From positions 1 through 64,000 of the forward strand of contig JAPCJI010000002.1 in the NCBI GenBank assembly GCA_027887005.1: a stretch of DNA of 64,000 bases. The letters run 5' to 3'. The translations under genes were made by a program, and so were the position numbers. Position 1 is the stretch's first letter. Each line of letters begins with the position of its first letter. A model generated the notes under the pieces. The model saw nothing but the letters and a program-made list of their open reading frames with translations. It had not been told where the DNA came from and searched no databases. The DNA is from Nitrososphaerota archaeon (lineage in GTDB: Archaea; Thermoproteota; Nitrososphaeria; Nitrososphaerales; Gagatemarchaeaceae). Of this stretch, positions 4,835 to 13,259 are shown piece after piece.

Positions 4835-5055
4835 ACCCAAACTCGTGCCCTAGTCATCGCAAGCAACGGCTCGACCTGAGGCTACATGGAATACTTCCAG
4901 ATCATGGGATCGCAGTCTCGTCAAGACCGCGGCAACGTGGCGGGCCTGGTGAGGCCAGCCCCCAAACATGTTCCGAGAAGGTCTCCGTGGGTAGTGGCGA
5001 TGTTGCAAGTCTGCAGTAGGGCCGCTCACTTTCGCCTATGAAGTGAGCGATGCGA

Positions 5056-6219
5056 TCAGGAGAGTGCCGCCTTTAGGTCGGCTATCAGGTCGTCAGCGTC
5101 CTCTATCCCCACCGAGAATCTCACCAGTCCGTCCCCGATGCCGAGCTTCTGGCGCCTTGTGGCCGGGAGGCTCGCGTGCGTCATGGTCGCGGGGTGCTCC
5201 ACGAGAGACTCCACCCCACCTAGGCTCTCGGCCAAGGAGAAGACCTCTAGCCTGCCAAGGAACTTGCTCACTGCCTTCATCCCTCCCTTCATCTCCGCCG
5301 AGACCATTCCTCCCGCCATACGCATCTGTCTCTTCGCCAGGGCATACTGAGGATGAGACTTCAGCCCCGGATAGTGGACGGCCGAGAACTTGGGGTGAGA
5401 GGCGAGGAACTCCGCCACCTTCAGGGCGTTCTGGCTGTGCCTCTCCATCCTGAGGTGCAGAGTCTTCGAACCTCTCAGGATTAGGAAACAATCGAAGGGG
5501 GACGGAACGGCACCGATGGCGTTCTGGTTGAACTTGACTGAATCGAAGAGGGTTCGGTCGTTGAGGATCACGGCCCCCCCGACCACGTCGCTGTGTCCCC
5601 CGATGAACTTCGTCGTGCTGTGGACTGCCACGTCCGCCCCGAGGGCAAGGGGGTTCTGGAGAAACGGGCTCGCGAAGGTGTTGTCAACGACGGTCGCCGC
5701 CCCGCCGTCCCTGGCGGCCTTCGAAATCGAACTGATGTCGCAGATGTGCATCAGGGGGTTGGTGGGGCTCTCCAGCCACACGAGCCTGGTCTTGGGGCCG
5801 ATTGCCTCCTTGACCGCCCTAAGGTCCCTCGTATCGACGTAGGTTATGGCGACTCCGAACTTCCTGAAAGTAGTCTCGAAGAGCCTGACGGTCCCGCCGT
5901 AGAGATCGTTGCCCGCGAGGACGTGGTCCCCCTTCTTGAGAGCGGAGAGGAGGAGGGTGGTCTCCGCGGCCATCCCCGAAGAGAAGGCGAGGGCGTAGTC
6001 TGCGCCCTCCATGATTGCGAGCCTCCGCTCCAGGGCGAACCTGGTCGGGTTCCCGGTCCTGGAGTACTCGAGGCCTCCGGTGGGCTTTGCCGAGTCCTTT
6101 CTCGCGAAGGTCGCCGAGAGGTGGATGGGCACGACAACGTCGCCAGTCGCGGAGAGGTCGGGCTCCTCGCCCGAATGGACGGCCCGGGTCCCGAATCCCA
6201 AGGGCCTACGTTTCGGCAA
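5056..6219 (-). CDS. cystathionine gamma-synthase/gamma-lyase family PLP enzyme
   Basis: The 387 residues are full length for the Cys/Met metabolism PLP family. Visible motifs are the phosphate-binding SSGMAAE, the ESPTNP segment, the PLP aspartate in VVDNTFASP and the Schiff-base lysine in HSTTKFIGGHSD. The enzyme makes or cleaves cystathionine; family members are hard to tell apart by sequence, so synthase or lyase is left open. Its start overlaps the end of the upstream cystathionine beta-synthase-like gene by 14 bases, which together favours reverse transsulfuration (homocysteine to cysteine). A diverged copy of its last codons lies at 1-60, suggesting its 3' end once served as an insertion site. 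Confidence 0.9.
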   Translation of the reverse strand: MPKRRPLGFGTRAVHSGEEPDLSATGDVVVPIHLSATFARKDSAKPTGGLEYSRTGNPTRFALERRLAIMEGADYALAFSSGMAAETTLLLSALKKGDHVLAGNDLYGGTVRLFETTFRKFGVAITYVDTRDLRAVKEAIGPKTRLVWLESPTNPLMHICDISSISKAARDGGAATVVDNTFASPFLQNPLALGADVAVHSTTKFIGGHSDVVGGAVILNDRTLFDSVKFNQNAIGAVPSPFDCFLILRGSKTLHLRMERHSQNALKVAEFLASHPKFSAVHYPGLKSHPQYALAKRQMRMAGGMVSAEMKGGMKAVSKFLGRLEVFSLAESLGGVESLVEHPATMTHASLPATRRQKLGIGDGLVRFSVGIEDADDLIADLKAALS

Positions 6220-7585
6220 GGTAGTTTATCACATCTGCGATGGTCAGGACGCCGACGATCTTTCTCCCGTCCAGAACCGCCACCGCCCCGGCGTTGCCGA
6301 GGAGGGTCCCGGGGATCAGCATCTTCGCCTTGAGCTGGACGGAGGGGAGGGGCGGGCCCATGCACTCCTCGACCTTGCCCCGAGGGCCCGGCCGGACCGC
6401 TGCTCTGATGAGTGCGAGGCCCGAGAGGCAGCCCACCTGAACCTCGCCCCTGACGACGAGGAGATGCGTCAGCTTGCGGTCGGCCATCAACCGAAGGACG
6501 GCTGAGACCTTCCTGGAGGGGGGGACGGAGACGAACCCTGGGCCCCCGTCCGCAGAGGATTTCATGAGGGAGCGCACCGAGACTTTCCTCCCTCGGGACG
6601 GGAGGAAGGCGTGCTCCTCCATCCAGTCATCGTTGTAGACCTTGTTCAGGTAGCTCCGTCCAGTGTCAGGAAGGATCACGACGACAGTCTTCGACGAGCC
6701 AAGGCCCCGGGATGCGCGGAGGGCACCGAGCACGGCTGCCCCCGACGAAGAGCCGGCGAGTATCCCCTCCTCCCTGGCCAGGCGTCGTGTCATGAGCATA
6801 GCCTCTTTGTCCGAGACTGTGACGAAGTCGTCGATGACCTTCATGTCAAGTGTCTTCGGGAGGAAATCCTCGCCGATTCCCTCGACCTTGTAGGCCAAGG
6901 CCCGCGACTTCTTGCCGCGGAAGAGCTCGGCCAGGATCGAGCCCTCCGGGTCTACCCCGACCACCCGGATGGAGGGGTCCTTCTCCTTCAGGAACTTCGC
7001 AGTCCCGGAGATGGTCCCTCCGGTCCCGACGCCCACCACAAGGACGTCCAGCTTCCCATCGGTCTGCTCCCAGATTTCAGGCCCCGTGGTCTCGTAGTGC
7101 GCCCTCGGGTTGGCCGCATTTTCGTACTGGTTGGGCATGAACGCGCCGGGGGTCCTCTTGGTTATCCTCTTCGCGACCTCGACGTAGCTCTCAGGATGGC
7201 CCGGGGGCACGTTGGAAGGGGTCACTCTCACCCGGGCGCCCACCGCCCGAAGGAGGTCGATCTTGTCGCGGCTCATCTTGTCCGGGACGGTGAATACCAC
7301 CTTGTACCCGCGGTGGATGGCCGCGAGGGCGAGCCCCATTCCCGTGTTGCCCGAAGTGGGTTCGACTATGGTAGCCCCTGGTTTGATGAGCCCCTTCCTC
7401 TCGGCGTCGAGGATCATCGAGAGGCCGATCCTGTCTTTGACGCTGCCTCCGGGGTTGAAGAACTCGAGCTTGGCGTAGACCTTCGCCCTGACGCCCCGGG
7501 TGACCTTCTTCAGCCTGACTAGGGGCGTCCCACCGACCAGCTCGAGGATGCTCTCTGCGACGCGCGGGCCCACCCTGGGGGTCAC
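6206..7585 (-). CDS. cystathionine beta-synthase-like enzyme with CBS domain pair
   Basis: The 459-residue protein has an N-terminal fold type II PLP domain (about 1-320) and two C-terminal CBS domains (about 335-459). The PLP lysine is in NPGGSVKDRIG, followed by TSGNTGMGLA and the glycine loop VGTGGTISG. The CBS pair probably binds an adenosyl ligand and regulates activity, as in related enzymes. It could act as cystathionine beta-synthase or cysteine synthase; the overlapping cystathionine gamma-enzyme gene downstream favours the former. It overlaps proC by 4 bases, so translation of all three is probably coupled. Confidence 0.9.
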   Translation of the reverse strand: MTPRVGPRVAESILELVGGTPLVRLKKVTRGVRAKVYAKLEFFNPGGSVKDRIGLSMILDAERKGLIKPGATIVEPTSGNTGMGLALAAIHRGYKVVFTVPDKMSRDKIDLLRAVGARVRVTPSNVPPGHPESYVEVAKRITKRTPGAFMPNQYENAANPRAHYETTGPEIWEQTDGKLDVLVVGVGTGGTISGTAKFLKEKDPSIRVVGVDPEGSILAELFRGKKSRALAYKVEGIGEDFLPKTLDMKVIDDFVTVSDKEAMLMTRRLAREEGILAGSSSGAAVLGALRASRGLGSSKTVVVILPDTGRSYLNKVYNDDWMEEHAFLPSRGRKVSVRSLMKSSADGGPGFVSVPPSRKVSAVLRLMADRKLTHLLVVRGEVQVGCLSGLALIRAAVRPGPRGKVEECMGPPLPSVQLKAKMLIPGTLLGNAGAVAVLDGRKIVGVLTIADVINYLAET

Positions 7586-8385
7586 TCCTCTCCTTCGAAC
7601 TTCTTCGCAACCCTCTCGGAGGCCCGGGTGGCTGCTTCTACGGCGTTCATCACGCTCGTCCTGAAGGAGCCCTTCTCGAGCTCGTAGATGCCGGCTATGG
7701 TCGTCCCGGCTGGCGTCGTCACCGAATCCCTGAGTTCCGCGGGGTGCATCTTCTTCTCCTCGAGAAGGTCGGCGGTTCCGACCAGCGTTTTTGTGACAAG
7801 CTTCGACGCGATTTCTCTCGGCATCCCTACCATAAGCGCGCCGCTGACCATCGACTCGATGAAGGTGGCGATGTAGGCGGGGCCGCTCCCGCTCAGTGCC
7901 GTGACCGCGTTCATGAGGGACTCGGGGACGCGGATGCTTTCGCCGAAGGACCTGAGGACCGACTCGACGGCTCGTGTCTCGCCCTCGCTCACTTCGGGGG
8001 AAAGAGAGTAGGCGGTGATGGATTCTCTGATGGTCGCCGCTATGTTGGGCATGGCCCTGACCACCTTGGCACCCGGCAGAGCGGCCTGGATTCTCTTGAT
8101 CGAAACAGCGGCCATCAGAGAAACGACCAGTTTGCCCCTGGTGACGCCCGATATCTCCTTGAGAAGAGCCTTGGCATCCCCCGCCTTCACCGAGACGATG
8201 ACCAGGTCGGCGTCCTTCGCGGCCCTCCTGTTGTCCGTAGTTACCTGAAGCTTGGACGAAGCGAGGTGCCTGACGGGACCTAGGTTCCTCCTCGTCATGA
8301 TCACCCTTGAGACGCTCTTGGACCTGGAGAGGCTCCTCGCCACCGCCTCCCCTATCCTCCCCCCTCCGAGCACGGCCACTATCAT
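7582..8385 (-). CDS. proC: pyrroline-5-carboxylate reductase
   Basis: The 267-residue protein performs the NAD(P)H-dependent last step of proline synthesis. The Rossmann motif VLGGGRIGEA is at the N-terminus, and the C-terminal ProC signature contains VTALSGSGPAYIATFIESM and the conserved DSVTTPAGTTIAGIYELE region. Length is normal. It is the first gene of a three-gene operon with overlapping cystathionine beta- and gamma-enzymes. The pairing of proline with sulfur amino acid genes is a genomic association, not a known pathway. Confidence 0.93.
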   Translation of the reverse strand: MIVAVLGGGRIGEAVARSLSRSKSVSRVIMTRRNLGPVRHLASSKLQVTTDNRRAAKDADLVIVSVKAGDAKALLKEISGVTRGKLVVSLMAAVSIKRIQAALPGAKVVRAMPNIAATIRESITAYSLSPEVSEGETRAVESVLRSFGESIRVPESLMNAVTALSGSGPAYIATFIESMVSGALMVGMPREIASKLVTKTLVGTADLLEEKKMHPAELRDSVTTPAGTTIAGIYELEKGSFRTSVMNAVEAATRASERVAKKFEGEE

Positions 8386-8540
8386 GTCCTATCGCATTGG
8401 ACGGGTTCCTGCGGGGCTGATTTACTTTGCGGGGGCGCCACCCCCTGCTGGCTCGGAAGGACGGTGATTTCGGGCTTCGCGAAGGCCCCTGGGGGTGTTT
8501 GCGCGGTTAGAGTTATCTAGACCAGACCCCAAAACCGTGT

Positions 8541-9593
8541 GTGAGAAGAGAGAACAGGACCTCGAAGGCAGTCTCGGCTGTCCTTGTCGTCTCCCTGGTT
8601 GCGCTGTCAGGGTTGGGGGCCTACCTGGTCAACCAAACGATCCTGGACTCGAGTCCTCTAGTAGGCAGCGCAGTGAAGGTGGCTACATCATCCTTCAGCC
8701 CGTTCGTAGGTGCGGTGGGAAACGTAGGGTACCTCTACGTCGGACTGCTGAACGGCACAGTGGTGAAGATGGAAGCCCAGAGCGGCAAGGTTGTGAAATC
8801 CGTCGCCCTCCCCGACCAGAACTCGGCCGCGCACTTGGTGTACTACAACGACTCGGTGTACGTCGGGACGGAGAAGTTGCCAGGAGCGAAGGACACTGGA
8901 CCGTATCACGTCTACAGAATCGACTCCCAGACGATGCAGATAGCGGGACAGATGGCCATGAACCTTCACGAGGCCAACGGATTCCTGTTGGCCTTCAACG
9001 GGTATCTCTGGGCAGGGGACGGCCAGTGCACCCTCTACAAGATTGCGCCGCGCAACCTGACGGTGGTGAAGATGGTCCCGAACGTTGCGGAGGACGAGAT
9101 GGCCTTTGACGGGCAGTACTATTGGACTCAGTGCGTTCACAGCGTCCACGTTCTGAAAGCAGATTCCACCCTATCGAGCGTGGCCGCAGGCGTGCTGACA
9201 GGACCCGGAAGGCCGCGGGGCTTCTTCATTCTGGGTTCATCTACCTACTGTACGGACACGGCGAACTTCACCCGGCACCGGATGCTCCTGTCTGGGCATA
9301 CGGTGATGTTCAGTAGGGTGGGAAGCTTCCTCGACCAGGCCATCGGGACCCGCGACGCCTTTTCATTGAAGGGCCTTCTTTACTTCTATGAGACCAGGGA
9401 CGACAGGCAGGTCCCTGGCCGGATCATCGTCTATGACGGGAATCAGAAACTCGAAGTCGTAGTCAACCTGTTCGGATACGGCCTTCCGACGGACGCTTCA
9501 CAGCATTCGATGTTCCTCCTCGACGGGAGGATCTACTTCGTGACGCCTTCCGTGGTGGGATATCTCCTGCCTTTCGACGCCCAGGCGGTCTGA
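8541..9593 (+). CDS. secreted, membrane-anchored beta-propeller-like protein
   Basis: This 350-residue protein begins at a GTG about 24 bases after TTATCTA (8514-8520). An N-terminal signal anchor (about 10-31) precedes a region of repeated short beta segments such as YLYVGLLNGTVVKMEAQSG, YNDSVYVGTEKL and FNGYLWAGDGQ, the pattern of quinoprotein or PQQ-like propeller blades. Three cysteines lie between about 160 and 240. No catalytic residues are recognised. It probably faces the cell exterior and may bind a partner or polymer; this is inferred from the fold pattern. It stands alone, divergent from proC and convergent with the RidA-family gene. Confidence 0.7.
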   Translation: MRRENRTSKAVSAVLVVSLVALSGLGAYLVNQTILDSSPLVGSAVKVATSSFSPFVGAVGNVGYLYVGLLNGTVVKMEAQSGKVVKSVALPDQNSAAHLVYYNDSVYVGTEKLPGAKDTGPYHVYRIDSQTMQIAGQMAMNLHEANGFLLAFNGYLWAGDGQCTLYKIAPRNLTVVKMVPNVAEDEMAFDGQYYWTQCVHSVHVLKADSTLSSVAAGVLTGPGRPRGFFILGSSTYCTDTANFTRHRMLLSGHTVMFSRVGSFLDQAIGTRDAFSLKGLLYFYETRDDRQVPGRIIVYDGNQKLEVVVNLFGYGLPTDASQHSMFLLDGRIYFVTPSVVGYLLPFDAQAV

Positions 9594-9631
9594 GCCTCTT
9601 CGGAGGGGCACCCGCCAACCCTTTCCAAGCC

Positions 9632-10027
9632 TCAACCCAGGGCAACCGCTTCTATCTCGACGACTTGGCCTGGAAAGGCAAGGCCCTTAGTTTCCACCAG
9701 TGTGGACGCAGGAAAACCGTCTGAGAAGAATTGTTTCGTAAGCTCAGTGAATTCCTCGATGGTGCCCTTCATGTCAGTCACGTAGGCGGTTATCTTCATG
9801 ACGTTCTGGTTCGCCATTCCGCTTTCATTCAGGACTGCGGCTATCCCGTCGAGCGCCATTTGGCATTGCTCTCGGAAGGTGCCGCCGACGAAGTTGCCTT
9901 CCTTGTCCGCGGCGAGCTGGCCCGAAATGAAGAGGATCCTTTTGCCTCCTTCGGCCAGGATGCCTTGGCTGAACCCATATGGATCGCTGTTGAAGATCGA
10001 GGGAGGCGCGATTGCCCTTCGTTTCAA
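9632..10027 (-). CDS. RidA/YjgF family protein lacking the usual catalytic arginine
   Basis: The 131-residue protein matches the RidA fold: FISGQLAADKEGNFVGG, REQCQMALDGIAAVL and the C-terminal VVEIEAVALG. RidA proteins deaminate reactive enamines and imines using an arginine in a P-A-R-S type loop; here that loop reads PASTLVET, so the arginine is missing and deaminase activity is doubtful. TTG 10027 is preferred over the in-frame ATG at 10075: a GGATAAACC element near 10055-10063 lies about 30 bases before it, and the shorter form has the usual family length. An unrelated function within the family is likely. Confidence 0.8.
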   Translation of the reverse strand: MKRRAIAPPSIFNSDPYGFSQGILAEGGKRILFISGQLAADKEGNFVGGTFREQCQMALDGIAAVLNESGMANQNVMKITAYVTDMKGTIEEFTELTKQFFSDGFPASTLVETKGLAFPGQVVEIEAVALG

Positions 10028-10054
10028 GGTACGGGAATGCCGGGAGGGGTGAAG

Positions 10055-10063
10055 GTGGTTTAT
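10055..10063 (-). promoter_or_regulatory. TATA-like element for the RidA-family gene
   Basis: GGATAAACC read on the minus strand lies inside the longer reading frame and about 30 bases before TTG 10027, which is why the shorter start was chosen. Confidence 0.45.
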
Positions 10064-10116
10064 CCGTTTCGGCATCGGAACTCCAGCGAGTTCGCGAACA
10101 ACGAATTCAAGACCGA

Positions 10117-10136
10117 AGCGGCCCGGTGGGGCTCAG
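10117..10136 (+). repeat. degenerate tRNA-Lys 3'-end copy
   Basis: AGCGGCCCGGTGGGGCTCAG resembles the copies at 11620 and 12300 and the 3' end of the tRNA-Lys gene (13103-13122) with one base deleted and a few substitutions. All copies have the same orientation and lie downstream of the tRNA 3' end. A second fragment at 10143-10157 (TGGGATCGAATCCG) also resembles the tRNA T-loop region. This is the most diverged and most distant copy. Confidence 0.45.
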
Positions 10137-10212
10137 ACCTATTATGGGATCGAATCCGAGCGTTGGCTAGGCCACAAGGGTTAAAGGGATTCTATGCCCC
10201 ATTCCATAACGA

Positions 10213-11010
10213 ATGCTGGACTTCGCTCCTAGCTTCCTAGCATGGTTAGCTTCCACAGCTGTTCCAGCCTTCGTGGGATTGCTGGTAATTACCAGCCTTG
10301 GTTCACTCGTGAAGCCCAGGTATCTCAACGCCTTCGCGTTAGGTATCTTCCTCTGGTTCTTCGTCGACACGATCGGCGGGTCCTCCAACCTGGAGGTTAA
10401 CCAGGGCTTCAGTGGCGGAGCCAGCCAGGCCGCAGTCCTGCTGCTCTTCGTTGTGGGTGTCGTGCTGTCTTTCTCAGGAGATAGGGGATTGTTTTCTGCC
10501 GATTCGGTGGTCGGAACTTTCGACCTCAGGATTCCGCTCTTGGTGGCGATTGCGGTGGGAATCCATGGGTTCGGCGAAGGTACTGCGTTCGGCAGCACCG
10601 CAGCATCCACCTCGAACACTCAACTTTTGGACGCTTTCGGGGGGGTGAGTGCCGGAATCGCGTATGCGCTTCACAAGGCGCTCGAGCCGATGATGATAGG
10701 AGCGGTCTACGTCTTCTATTCGCGAAATCAAATCAGAGGGGGCCTGAGCAGGGCGAAGGATCTGGTCTTCCTGACGGTTCTATTCGTCTTCCCGTCGTTA
10801 ATCGGGGCGGCGACTGGGTACTACGTGAGTTATGACGCGACCTACTTCTTCGCGCTGGGGACGGGGACCTCGGTCTACGCCGCGCTGAAATTGGCCAAGC
10901 CTCTCTTCCAAGGCCCAGAGGTCGCAGGTTCTGCGGACTCGCTGAAGGTCGCGTTGTGGCTGGTCTTCGGGTTTGTCTGCATTTATTTCGCAGGGCTATT
11001 CCACTCCTAG
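10213..11010 (+). CDS. ZIP family divalent metal transporter
   Basis: The 265-residue protein has about eight hydrophobic helices. The ZIP signature is visible in helix 4, GIHGFGEGTAFGS (H-x3-E-G), and helix 5, ALHKALEPMMIG, which hold the metal-binding histidines and glutamates of the family. ZIP proteins move zinc, iron or other divalent metals into the cytoplasm; the substrate cannot be read here. A TATA-like GGTTAAAGG at 10179-10187 lies about 30 bases before the ATG. A CuA-like cupredoxin gene follows 10 bases later, making a metal-related transcription unit bounded by tRNA-derived repeats. Confidence 0.8.
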   Translation: MLDFAPSFLAWLASTAVPAFVGLLVITSLGSLVKPRYLNAFALGIFLWFFVDTIGGSSNLEVNQGFSGGASQAAVLLLFVVGVVLSFSGDRGLFSADSVVGTFDLRIPLLVAIAVGIHGFGEGTAFGSTAASTSNTQLLDAFGGVSAGIAYALHKALEPMMIGAVYVFYSRNQIRGGLSRAKDLVFLTVLFVFPSLIGAATGYYVSYDATYFFALGTGTSVYAALKLAKPLFQGPEVAGSADSLKVALWLVFGFVCIYFAGLFHS

Positions 11011-11020
11011 GTGAGAATTC

Positions 11021-11452
11021 TTGAAACTTGACCGCCGTACGACCATTCTGATTCTGGTTGTCGCCGTTGTGATTAGTTCCACGTTGGTGGTTGCGTACTC
11101 TCTGAACTTGGGGAAGGCTGGCCCGGGCACGAAGCAATCTGGCGGTTTCCTGATAATCGCCGGTCCCAACGGGTACAATGACAGCATCGACCACGGCGTT
11201 CCTCAGAACCCTTGGCCCATAGTCAAGGTGCAGAAGGGAACCACGGTGACCATTTCGGTGTACAACTCCGACCACCAGGCACACGGATTCCAAATCACGC
11301 ACTATCTCGCTGGGAGCATAAACACTGTAGCCCCGGGACAGACGTTCACGGTCTCGTTCGTCGCCGATGAGACGGGGACATTTCAGATCTACTGCGCGAT
11401 TTTTTGCACGGTGCATGCCTTCATGCAGAGTGGGGAGCTCATCGTCCAATAG
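11021..11452 (+). CDS. membrane-anchored cupredoxin with CuA-like binuclear copper motif
   Basis: This 143-residue protein has an N-terminal anchor helix (about 8-27) and a cupredoxin domain. The C-terminal motif CAIFCTVHAFM gives Cys-x3-Cys-x2-His-x2-Met, close to the CuA site of cytochrome oxidase subunit II (Cys-x3-Cys-x3-His-x2-Met) but one residue shorter between the second Cys and His. An upstream His occurs in DHQAHGF. It lacks the two-helix hairpin of a true oxidase subunit, so an independent electron carrier or copper carrier is more likely. TTG 11021 follows an AGGTGAG Shine-Dalgarno-like site, consistent with translation behind the ZIP gene. Confidence 0.8.
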   Translation: MKLDRRTTILILVVAVVISSTLVVAYSLNLGKAGPGTKQSGGFLIIAGPNGYNDSIDHGVPQNPWPIVKVQKGTTVTISVYNSDHQAHGFQITHYLAGSINTVAPGQTFTVSFVADETGTFQIYCAIFCTVHAFMQSGELIVQ

Positions 11453-11619
11453 CGTTCGCCCAAGTATTCATTCGGTGACTGGGAAACGCAAGGTAGACTC
11501 GGCGTTCTCCGAAGCCAACCGCGCCGAGTTCAGGCCCAAGCGACTCCCGTACTTCAGCGTCTTGGCCGGGACTTGTCAGTCAATGTAGGCGCCCCAACAT
11601 ACGAGTTGAAGGATGCCAT

Positions 11620-11639
11620 AGCGGGCCCGGTGGGGTCCG
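11620..11639 (+). repeat. tRNA-Lys 3'-end derived repeat (copy 2)
   Basis: AGCGGGCCCGGTGGGGTCCG is identical to the copy at 12300-12319 and matches 18 of 20 bases of the 3' end of the intact tRNA-Lys gene at 13103-13122. On the minus strand it can still form the GTGGG/CCCAC T-stem with a shortened loop, but no other tRNA part is present. The surrounding intergenic stretch 11453-11690 holds nothing else recognisable. Confidence 0.7.
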
Positions 11640-11690
11640 CCCACAAACGGGTCCGAAGTATGGATTCCGACAGATGAACGCGACACGAAT

Positions 11691-12188
11691 TCAGTAGAAT
11701 CCGGCGGCGACCATGAAGACCGACGCGAGAACAAGAAGGAGGACCGTCAGAGTGGCTGTGTCTGAAGCCCTCTTGAGCGTCTTTGGAAAATCCGCCGGGG
11801 GTTGATGCTGACCGGAGGCTTGCATTTCCTTTATCATGTTTATCGCCTTGACCTGGATTGGAACACTTACGAATTCTGAGATTAGGAACGCGACAAACCC
11901 AATGGACAGCCCAATCGATAAGTTGACTCCATAAGAGGTCGAGGGGTCGAGCAGCGGCAAGCTCCCGAGGCTATAGAGAAGAAGTACTCCGAACAGTATG
12001 GTCGTGCCCGCAAATATCTGAAAGAACCGAACGACCCTTGGGACGACTTTCACTAGGAATTCGCCTGAACTGGGAGGTGAGAGCTTCGCGAGGGCTGGTC
12101 CCACCACAAAGGCGAACATTATTCCGCCGCCAAGCCAGCCTATAGCTGAAACAATGTGAAACCAGGCAAGAATCGCCGTGAACAGCAT
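11691..12188 (-). CDS. CopD-like membrane protein
   Basis: The 165-residue protein has about four helices. The N-terminal AWFHIVSAIGWLGGGIMF resembles the opening helix of CopD/YcnJ-type copper resistance membrane domains and related four-helix proteins, where the histidine can bind copper or heme. The family assignment is tentative. It lies alone between two tRNA-derived repeats (11620 and 12300), next to the ZIP and CuA-like genes, which supports a role in copper handling by context only. Confidence 0.55.
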   Translation of the reverse strand: MLFTAILAWFHIVSAIGWLGGGIMFAFVVGPALAKLSPPSSGEFLVKVVPRVVRFFQIFAGTTILFGVLLLYSLGSLPLLDPSTSYGVNLSIGLSIGFVAFLISEFVSVPIQVKAINMIKEMQASGQHQPPADFPKTLKRASDTATLTVLLLVLASVFMVAAGFY

Positions 12189-12299
12189 TCCCTAAGGTCC
12201 TCGTTTCGGACTTGGCATTACGCTATTTAACTGTGGGTTGAGGGAAAAGTTCCCCCCTTAGGTCGCCACCTGACAACCGACTCGACGATTCCAAAGAGA

Positions 12300-12319
12300 A
12301 GCGGGCCCGGTGGGGTCCG
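12300..12319 (+). repeat. tRNA-Lys 3'-end derived repeat (copy 3)
   Basis: An exact second occurrence of AGCGGGCCCGGTGGGGTCCG, 803 bases from the same region of the intact tRNA-Lys gene and 680 from copy 2. It lies between the CopD-like gene and the DHFR-like gene. Confidence 0.7.
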
Positions 12320-12376
12320 GTGCGGAATCGTACCCCAGAGCTGGCCCAATAATGGGCCTTACTTAGTCAGCCCCGG

Positions 12377-12468
12377 CTACTTCCTGAGCCTCTCCACCAA
12401 CTCCTTGTACCTGGACCTCTTCAGAAGGCGCCTGTTGCCTAGGCTTAACTCAGTCGACCAGAGGGGTA
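12377..12468 (-). pseudogene. possible C-terminal gene remnant
   Basis: A short open frame on the minus strand ends in RYKELVERLRK and a stop at 12377-12379, preceded by the basic stretch LGNRRLLKRS. The composition looks protein-like, as of a DNA- or RNA-binding C-terminus, but the frame has no plausible start and runs into the promoter of the gene at 12475. It could be a leftover gene end associated with the repeat at 12300, or chance. Confidence 0.25.
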
Positions 12469-12474
12469 AGGACC

Positions 12475-13056
12475 ATGAGACATCTGATCCTTGACACAAT
12501 AGTTTCCCTTGACGGGTACTTTACGAGTCTGAGGAATGAGATTGACTGGTTCGGATTCGACGACGACGAGTGGAAATGGTCTAGGGATATTAATCGCAGG
12601 GTGGACACGATGCTCTATGGGCGAGTCACTTACGAAGAGTTCAGGCAGTTCTGGCCGACTACAGCCCCGAAGTCAATGGGGGTGGATCCCACTCTCATTC
12701 AGCAGCTGAACACCCTGCAGAAAGTAGTTTTCTCGCGGACTCTCGCCAAGGCGTCTTGGAAGCCCGCGACCCTCGTGCGAGGCAACCCGAGCGAGGCCGT
12801 CTCGAAGCTCAAACGACAGAATGGGAAGGACATAGTCGTCGTGGGCAGCGGAACGCTGGTGGGCTCGCTCCTCCGAGAGGATCTCATCGACGAGTATTAC
12901 GTCCGGGTACGTCCCATCATACTGGGCTCGGGGAGGCCCATATTCGTCGACCCCGACGGCAGGCACCCTCTAAAGCTGATCAGCGCCAAGACGTTCAAGT
13001 CGGGAGTGGTCGGACTCCACTACGAACCACTAGCGCAGACGAGAGACAGAAAATAG
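12475..13056 (+). CDS. dihydrofolate reductase-like (RibD C-terminal domain) protein
   Basis: The 193-residue protein matches the RibD_C/DHFR-like family: ILDTIVSLDGYF at the N-terminus, MLYGRVTYEEF, IVVVGSGTLVGSLL and YYVRVRPIILGSGRPIF. These proteins use NADPH, but most stand-alone members have no assigned substrate; a role in antifolate metabolism or riboflavin synthesis cannot be deduced. It lies between the third tRNA-derived repeat and the intact tRNA-Lys gene, so it is probably the youngest cargo of that locus. Confidence 0.85.
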   Translation: MRHLILDTIVSLDGYFTSLRNEIDWFGFDDDEWKWSRDINRRVDTMLYGRVTYEEFRQFWPTTAPKSMGVDPTLIQQLNTLQKVVFSRTLAKASWKPATLVRGNPSEAVSKLKRQNGKDIVVVGSGTLVGSLLREDLIDEYYVRVRPIILGSGRPIFVDPDGRHPLKLISAKTFKSGVVGLHYEPLAQTRDRK

Positions 13057-13124
13057 GTTCACCTCTCTTGATTCTGGAACCGCCGCGGGGTACGAAACTC
13101 AAAGCGGGCCCGGTGGGATTCGAA

Positions 13125-13146
13125 TTCGTGGGCGTTTTACACGCCT
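13125..13146 (-). other. predicted tRNA intron 3 (T-arm, 53/54)
   Basis: The 22-base intron forms an ideal bulge-helix-bulge: GGA bulge, four-pair CGTG/CACG helix, AAT bulge, and an internal GGCGT/ACGCC hairpin. Cutting after the second base of each bulge joins GTGGG to TTCGAAT exactly. Confidence 0.88.
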
Positions 13147-13162
13147 CCCACGACATGCTGGT

Positions 13163-13178
13163 GACTCCCACCTGAAGC
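13163..13178 (-). other. predicted tRNA intron 2 (anticodon loop, 37/38)
   Basis: The 16-base intron lies at the canonical position. Bulges TAG and TCA flank a four-pair CTCT/GGAG helix (one G-T pair), with cuts after the second base of each bulge, next to the GCTGG/CCAGC stem. Confidence 0.85.
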
Positions 13179-13191
13179 TAAGAGCCAGCCG

Positions 13192-13210
13192 CTTGAGCCG
13201 AGATTTATCT
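13192..13210 (-). other. predicted tRNA intron 1 (D-arm, 24/25)
   Basis: The 19-base insertion interrupts the 3' strand of the D-stem. Removal restores GAGC opposite GCTC. A GAGA/TCTC helix is possible, but the bulge-helix-bulge is irregular, so the exact ends could shift by one base. Confidence 0.75.
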
Positions 13211-13259
13211 CTCTAACCTGGCTGAGCCACGGGCCCGCAGTTTGAGCGTCCGTCTTTAC

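Follow-up and report, generated by a model that had tools for sequence, protein, structure and literature searches.

A tRNA gene whose 3′ end is repeated several times downstream, with small genes lying between the repeats, raises the question of how such genes came to be lined up there. One such locus lies in the stretch of DNA analysed here, the window (64,000 nucleotides of contig JAPCJI010000002.1 from a Nitrososphaerota archaeon), where three copies of a 20-base sequence, at 10117, 11620 and 12300, resemble the 3′ end of a tRNA-Lys gene (13103-13122). An earlier note had read these copies as partial attachment scars of successive integrations at this tRNA, all in one orientation, all downstream of it and more diverged with distance. 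The matches and their arrangement were borne out: the 20-mers at 11620 and 12300 agree with the tRNA-Lys 3′ end at 18 of 20 positions, the 10117 copy is degenerate and lacks one base, and at up to three mismatches the window contains three copies against a mean of 0.32 in window shuffles, none of 100 shuffles reaching three. The trend with distance is broadly right, the match being poorer at 10117 and poorer again in a fourth copy at 4938, but it fails for the copies at 11620 and 12300, which are identical over the 20-mer. The features of the locus are as follows.

4938..4986, + strand: attachment site, the outermost, a degenerate fourth copy beyond cysA (covariance model R1, 33.5 bits, E 1e-7)
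10116..10164, + strand: attachment site with type II right arm, core minus one base (R1, 43.9 bits, E 7e-12)
10213..11010, + strand: ZIP-transporter-like gene, gene 1 of the two-gene unit 10116-11618 (ORF, motif-based name)
11021..11452, + strand: cupredoxin gene, gene 2 of the same unit (Pfam Cupredoxin_1, E 8.6e-8)
11564..11618, + strand: probable left arm touching the core (78% identity to L207:8378-8434; motif GGCCGGGACTTGTCAG)
11619..11667, + strand: attachment site with type I right arm, core intact (R1, 57.5 bits, E 1.5e-16)
11691..12188, - strand: CopD-like membrane protein gene, single-gene unit (ORF, weak DUF2269 match only)
12299..12348, + strand: attachment site with right arm of another kind (hairpin GGTGCG-GAAT-CGTACC), core intact (R1, 47.4 bits, E 4.8e-13)
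12475..13056, + strand: RibD_C (DHFR-like) gene in the unit adjoining the tRNA (Pfam RibD_C, E 3.9e-24)
13105..13237, - strand: tRNA-Lys(CUU) gene, its 3′ end being the anchor with the core (sequence compared with orthologs in relatives)

Outward from the tRNA, the units thus carry RibD_C, the CopD-like gene, and ZIP with cupredoxin. The gene content described earlier stands for the cupredoxin and the DHFR-like protein, whereas the ZIP-like and CopD-like genes have no Pfam match above cut-off and owe both names to sequence motifs only. The tRNA-Lys(CUU) gene, reported by neither ARAGORN nor Rfam, contains introns, apparently three (D-arm, anticodon-loop and T-arm), when compared with its orthologs in relatives. 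A paralog of the ZIP-like gene (86% identity) is found at C1:247324-248118 of the same genome, the ZIP and cupredoxin pair being duplicated there at 81% identity with no recognisable site to its left, and a relative of the RibD_C gene sits between sites in L205. The cysK-tRNA-Lys interval measures 5.5 kb in the window, against about 0.7 kb in both G011 and G032. The possibility of a cysA-cysK cassette (4938-10116) was weighed but is not claimed, because cysA-cysK is kept beside tRNA-Lys across genera.

Judged from the sequence, the 20-mers are more than tRNA scars: each forms the left end of a putative recombination site of about 50 nt. The site consists of a core, GCGGGCCCGGTGGG, of about 11-15 bp, in common with tRNA 3′ ends, followed by a conserved right arm that is not of tRNA origin, and the similarity among the window copies extends about 30 nt beyond the tRNA-like part into this arm. 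The plain tRNA scar was rejected because of these shared 30 nt and because the copies retain GGGCCCGG even where the tRNA-Lys of the genome reads GGGCCTGG. On the other side of the core, a left-arm motif abuts internal sites as well as tRNA 3′ ends, and the probable left arm at 11564..11618 is common to a second site of the window's genome (L207:8378-8434). When covariance model R1 of the site was searched against 46 genomes of this thaumarchaeal family, 43 had matches, often in head-to-tail arrays and with many same-strand clusters; the window's own genome has 13. Pattern hits in G049, G051 and G052 suggest that the range reaches beyond the family to the order. The copies are att-like, as first proposed, but they are sites of a widespread family for which tRNA-Lys is not the sole anchor.

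Arrays of these sites are anchored at tRNA-Arg, tRNA-Lys or another tRNA with a GGGCC acceptor. Such a tRNA is present on the predicted side and strand, downstream, at 22 of 39 site-bearing loci (within 3.3 kb at 20 of the 22), and the reverse arrangement was seen at none of the 39; the other 17 have no detectable tRNA anchor, among them the sites on C1 and C3 of the window's genome. Occurrence at many unrelated places had been named in the earlier note as something that would speak against integration at the tRNA. The site does occur at many places, but the majority are arrays downstream of GGGCC-acceptor tRNAs. The units between sites have a median length of 1.2 kb (about 0.4-3 kb) and contain 0-2 predicted genes in 31 of 38 cases; their genes face both ways, and 36 of the 38 have no trace of an integrase, remnants being found in L198 and L209. 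A specific link to metal genes did not survive the comparison, since common cargo also comprises VapBC, ParE/RelE, KaiC-like, SDR, AMP-ligase and cyclase-TPR genes. We also would like to mention that L101 and L080 contain second tRNA-Lys copies, possibly duplicates.

Differences between relatives, all of them observed in MAG assemblies, bear on how the arrays grow. At the orthologous tRNA-Arg(CCG), the genomes G007, G022 and G024 (84-89% identical) differ by exactly one unit, located at the tRNA; the insertion lies precisely at the 3′ end of tRNA-Arg and its breakpoints fall inside the core CGGGCCCGGTG, and the inner core of G022 is degenerate. The newly inserted units of G022 and G024 carry small genes only and no integrase. 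Right arms vary from site to site, and unit insertions exchange them. The order of two cassettes, C and VapBC, is reversed between G007 and G016, while the near-identical pairs G007/G028, G008/G030 and G005/G013 have no array differences. The CopD-like unit of the window recurs between sites in a different, tRNA-anchored array of the sister genome G009, where homology begins at the first base of the site; this copy, spread over two contigs, is of the same size and likewise without an integrase. The single-unit indel, the change of order and the CopD-like unit in a second array support the presumed mobility of single units. The single-unit indel also supports the earlier suggestion of an insertion hot spot at the 3′ end of the tRNA, to which units are added singly, the newest adjoining the tRNA.

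No integrase is left at the locus itself, as had been noted, but this does not hold genome-wide: the window's genome encodes three integrases of one tyrosine recombinase family, of which C19 directly adjoins a copy of the 50-nt site, C11 lies at a tRNA that shares this core and C6 beside a third tRNA. Integrases of this family are located at tRNA ends in several relatives, and the tRNAs they use include some with other acceptors (GGACCGG, GCGGTCG). They have the catalytic R, K, (H/Y)xxR, H and Y of the tyrosine recombinase superfamily (R164, K217, Y291xxR294 and Y329 invariant and H321 nearly so over the aligned range of 16 sequences), and their profile matches archaeal XerC-like/XerA structures. 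We infer that a recombinase of this family may act on the cassette sites, and in trans.

In our opinion, the window locus is likely to belong to a large set of tRNA-anchored arrays of gene cassettes in this thaumarchaeal family, in which circularised cassettes are stacked by a trans-acting tyrosine recombinase. A cassette would be a small unit, usually of one or two genes and usually without an integrase, with one attachment site laid out as left arm, core and right arm. It would circularise, and the recombinase would then, in trans, recombine the core of the presumed circle with its identical counterpart at the 3′ end of tRNA-Arg, tRNA-Lys or some other GGGCC-acceptor tRNA. The sequence of the tRNA would remain unchanged, the left arm of the cassette would now abut the tRNA, and the core and right arm of the newcomer would become its boundary with the previously inserted cassette. 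Repeated insertion would thus build a head-to-tail stack, the newest cassette adjoining the tRNA and the outer sites decaying.

The same locus might have arisen if complete integrase-bearing elements had integrated serially at the tRNA and had later been deleted down to their cargo, leaving attR scars. Same-family integrases at tRNA ends of relatives, the integrase remnants of L198 and L209 and the tandem integration known in archaea (excerpts of PMC6563490 and PMC8371274) are in keeping with such a history, which we nevertheless regard as unlikely: the units are uniformly small and almost all free of integrase traces, the fresh units of G022 and G024 consist of small genes only, and an integrase-less CopD-like unit of equal size is found in two arrays of two species. 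It is highly improbable that we are dealing with a structured RNA or a regulatory repeat that accompanies horizontally acquired genes and has only an incidental likeness to tRNA 3′ ends. In favour of this, the right arm contains a hairpin-like inverted repeat in which a few compensatory changes are seen, and not every site has a tRNA close by. The hairpin is, however, only modestly supported (22% of sites versus 3% of shuffles), and the covariation, likewise modest, fits the inverted repeats of a recombinase site equally well. Rfam has no match to the site; its core is identical to tRNA ends, its polarity is constant, it is anchored at tRNAs, and the G007/G022 insertion has its breakpoints within the core. 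The least credible explanation is that the dispersed 50-nt repeats, present several times per genome, moved the genes by homologous recombination with no need of a site-specific recombinase, as breakpoints fall within the 11-15 bp of the core, sites swap their differing right arms, and insertions occur at the tRNA end, always with the same polarity relative to it. Virus-borne cassettes were also rejected, the exact site pattern not being found in IMG/VR contigs.

Several known systems resemble the cassette arrays in part. Tycheposons of Prochlorococcus are targeted to tRNAs, use a tyrosine recombinase and bring cargo genes to tRNA islands; they carry their own recombinase and a tRNA that restores the target, unlike the units described here, which have a 14 bp core and carry no tRNA, apart from the possible duplicates in L101 and L080. 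Cis-mobilizable elements are larger elements, in bacteria, whereas the present units can be as small as one gene and recur at several tRNAs of a genome. The likeness lies in att-bounded segments without their own recombinase that are stacked in tandem at one target, with related recombinases in the same genome (here the three integrases C11, C19 and C6). Such elements, reviewed with IMEs in PMC5704250 and named, with accretion, in PMC3146451, are thought to be mobilised by the recombinase of a relative. The ssrA islands of the bacterium Dehalococcoides are likewise tandem units downstream of one RNA gene, split by 20-bp repeats of its 3′ end, and 15 of them are without an integration module; their target is tmRNA, their recombinase the serine recombinase DsiB, and their integration modules alone span 9-11 kb (PMC3146451). 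The archaeal arrays differ in that they have single-gene units and a conserved right arm, use several tRNAs in each genome and go with tyrosine recombinases of one family. Integrated elements of Thaumarchaeota, as described in excerpts of PMC6563490 and PMC8371274, share the host phylum, tRNA targets and short att sites (median 17 bp), with tandem integration known, but are longer and mostly defined by an integrase of their own; those excerpts contain no integrase-less single-gene arrays with a shared right arm.

A further parallel in organisation is provided by integrons, bacterial and, with IntI, archaeal, in which arrays of small cassettes without an integrase are common (PMC9668308). Here too, each small cassette has one site, sites share a single orientation, cargo is rich in toxin-antitoxin genes, cassette order varies between strains and insertion takes place at a fixed anchor. 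The differences are that new units appear beside a tRNA 3′ end and not at an attI next to intI, that the core mimics tRNA and that cargo genes lie in both orientations. In an NCBIfam scan of eight integrases, neither IntI with its extra domain nor any integron-specific integrase model was matched at E up to 10; weak, sub-cut-off matches were of Xer type and included an archaeal XerA model that names integron integrase. Both R boxes of attC (RYYYAAC/GTTRRRY) are present in only 1 of 63 sites. A known integron was rejected given the absence of IntI and attC boxes, and, as far as sequence comparison goes, the locus appears to be an integron-like accretion array whose recombinase and sites differ from those of the bacterial integron.

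Whether this amounts to a second, independently evolved integron-like system, with archaeal single-gene cassettes and a trans-acting non-IntI tyrosine recombinase serving several tRNA genes per genome, is a matter on which we find ourselves evenly divided. Cassettes would in that case be captured, stacked and reshuffled with the tRNA 3′ end in the role of attI, and the cassette site would be a short tRNA-mimicking core with arms that contain sequence-variable inverted repeats. Integrons are the paradigm for single-gene stockpiling, and an unrelated archaeal, tRNA-anchored system following the same logic would mean that this strategy arose on more than one occasion. Such a system would also account for the gain, one at a time, of toxin-antitoxin, metal-handling and signalling genes in these Thaumarchaeota. 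As its sites are short and defined and a candidate recombinase is encoded in the same genome, the proposed system is directly testable, and the covariance model offers a means to find gene cassettes in unannotated archaeal genomes. A scan of public genomes with a longer site pattern, from which near relatives of the window were possibly left out, returned four loci, all in three 'Thaumarchaeota archaeon' MAG assemblies.

The repeats reported at tRNA-Lys by the earlier note were confirmed, the 20-mers at 11620 and 12300 being identical and agreeing with the tRNA-Lys 3′ end at 18 of 20 positions, and the copy at 10117 having one base missing. Their interpretation as scars of successive integrations was right in kind, in that it invoked insertions at a tRNA 3′ end, but too narrow: the best reading is that of cassette arrays that resemble integrons and are anchored at tRNAs, a novel form of accretion array. 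The genome comprises 1.6 Mb in 26 contigs, and the window is the beginning of contig C2 (C2:1-64000). The features concerned are:

13105-13237, minus strand: tRNA-Lys(CUU) gene, with inserts in D arm, anticodon loop and T arm
4938: fourth window copy of the site, a covariance model match
C19:9111-9159: site ending 31 bp upstream of a tyrosine-recombinase gene start, taken in this analysis as 9190
C11: integrase adjoining a tRNA with a core identical to that of the sites
C19: integrase adjoining a site
C6: integrase adjoining another tRNA

The 14-mer GCGGGCCCGGTGGG occurs six times in this genome: three times in the window, twice as the 3′ end of other tRNAs and once (C19:9113) without a tRNA. 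Its GGGG variant is recurrent across relatives, and a reversed control pattern is rare. Aligned copies extend beyond this tRNA-like core into a right arm of ~30 nt, of type I (CCCCCAAAcgGGTTCGAAAAGTGGATTCC) or type II (GACCCATTATGGGTTCGAATCC), and elsewhere the same place is occupied by a hairpin of other sequence (e.g., GGTGCG-GAAT-CGTACC at 12299); perfect stems of at least 5 bp are found in 22% of sites versus 3% of shuffles. With a covariance model, the site was located in 43 of the 46 genomes of the family, and the present genome has 13 copies. Those relatives that have named records are MAGs entitled "Thaumarchaeota archaeon", and the isolate names of at least two indicate groundwater. 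The window repeats are taken to be recombination sites. The copy at 4938 lies beyond cysA, and the genes to its left differ from the relatives' conserved neighbours.

Sites are grouped head to tail in a single orientation, as in genome G015 (contig C1, sites at 1143968, 1145195, 1146588 and 1148755, then a tRNA-Arg 3′ end at 1151994). Among 39 annotated site-bearing loci, 22 have a GGGCC-acceptor tRNA whose side and strand agree with the prediction (at 20 of these within 3.3 kb), none has the reverse arrangement and 17 are without a detectable tRNA anchor; the anchors include tRNA-Arg(CCG, TCG, GCG), tRNA-Lys and tRNA-Ile. The 38 delimited units have a median length of 1.2 kb; in 31 the number of predicted genes is 0-2, and remnants of an integrase are present in two. 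Cargo includes toxin-antitoxin pairs (VapBC/PIN with AbrB/MazE, ParE-RelE with a small antitoxin-like partner) and KaiC-like ATPase, SnoaL-like, AMP-ligase, SDR, CBS, methyltransferase and adenylate-cyclase-TPR proteins, and in the window cupredoxin and RibD_C. The adenylate-cyclase/TolB-like/TPR proteins (~450-780 aa) form one family, often adjoining sites (L197, L198, L203, L206, L207, L213, L225, L230, L231, L234), with genes in consecutive units at L197.

Several comparisons of loci indicate that units move singly. The G011 locus reads cysA-cysK-(0.7 kb)-tRNA-Lys-dphB, this interval measuring 5.5 kb in the window and a similar 0.7 kb in G032; in other relatives different genes occupy the spot between cysK and tRNA-Lys. 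At the orthologous tRNA-Arg(CCG), where C denotes one cassette, G007 has the order VapBC, PIN146/AbrB, site, C, tRNA; G022 has VapBC, site, C, core, PIN136/92-aa, tRNA; and G024 has C, site, 84-aa and 232-aa genes, tRNA. Alignments of G007 with G022 both end and restart within CGGGCCCGGTG, so that the insertion at the tRNA 3′ end was of exactly one unit. In G016, C is followed by VapBC adjoining the tRNA, the opposite of the G007 order. The CopD-like unit (11619-12298) is ~80% identical to DNA between sites of another array in the sister genome G009, where the copy is split over two contigs, which calls for caution; the alignment sets in at the site's first base, the left neighbour differs, and to the right are a cyclase-TPR gene and a different tRNA. 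The ZIP+cupredoxin pair has an 81% identical paralogous copy in the same genome (C1 near 247 kb, L304). To the right of this copy are a degenerate core (GCGGGCCCGACGGG) and the same left-arm motif as at other sites; to its left no site is recognisable.

At internal sites this left-arm motif, CAGAGTTCATTCTGAGCTATTTCATAA, is contiguous with the core; it also lies directly at tRNA 3′ ends in L206, L215 and L223, and in recognisable form terminates the tRNA-adjoining unit of G022 and G024. Its position at tRNA 3′ ends is predicted if a circle carrying left arm, core and right arm integrates there: the newest left arm would abut the tRNA, and the new right arm would be attached to the core that had been pushed outwards. 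Insertion is polar, with breakpoints in the core, and presumably involves circular intermediates and recombination in trans.

The genome encodes three members of one tyrosine-recombinase family; in many members of this family the gene starts no more than ~100 bp from the 3′ end of a tRNA. R164, K217, Y291xxR294 and Y329 are kept in 16 relatives, H321 nearly always; a profile weakly matches archaeal XerC-like/XerA structures, and NCBIfam detected no integron-specific integrase. One of the members presumably acts on the cassettes. Since same-family integrases adjoin tRNAs with other acceptors (GGACCGG, GCGGTCG; L109, L116, L120, L125, L135), parallel arrays with other cores, invisible to the covariance model, may exist. 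Contigs C11 (1-1290) and C19 (9111-11554) both break off within an element that bears an integrase; the two may be neighbours, in which case one array would hold two integrases.

The arrays behave like integrons but fall outside them as regards IntI, attC boxes and attI; archaeal integrons with IntI are already known (PMC9668308). Architecturally, the nearest published counterparts are the tandem ssrA islands of Dehalococcoides, several of which lack an integration module (PMC3146451), and the accretion of cis-mobilizable elements. Integrated elements of Thaumarchaeota have been described before, as has tandem integration (PMC6563490, PMC8371274). A literature search, made mostly outside subscription papers, turned up no account of arrays of single genes lacking an integrase at tRNAs of archaea.

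The tRNA-Lys(CUU) gene was not reported by tRNA finders. Its inserts are missing singly or together in relatives' orthologs (L076-L105) and have the appearance of three introns, of which subsets differ among relatives and the T-arm one may be there or missing within one genus. In G027 (L080:3557-3800), a decayed tRNA-Lys 3′ half lies ~127 bp downstream of the intact gene, beginning near the anticodon loop and retaining the T-arm intron, as expected after an integration in which the 3′ half was exchanged and the intron thereby lost. In G033 (L101:10457 and 11806), two apparently complete tRNA-Lys(CUU) genes flank a 271-aa gene, one with the anticodon-loop intron and the other without it.
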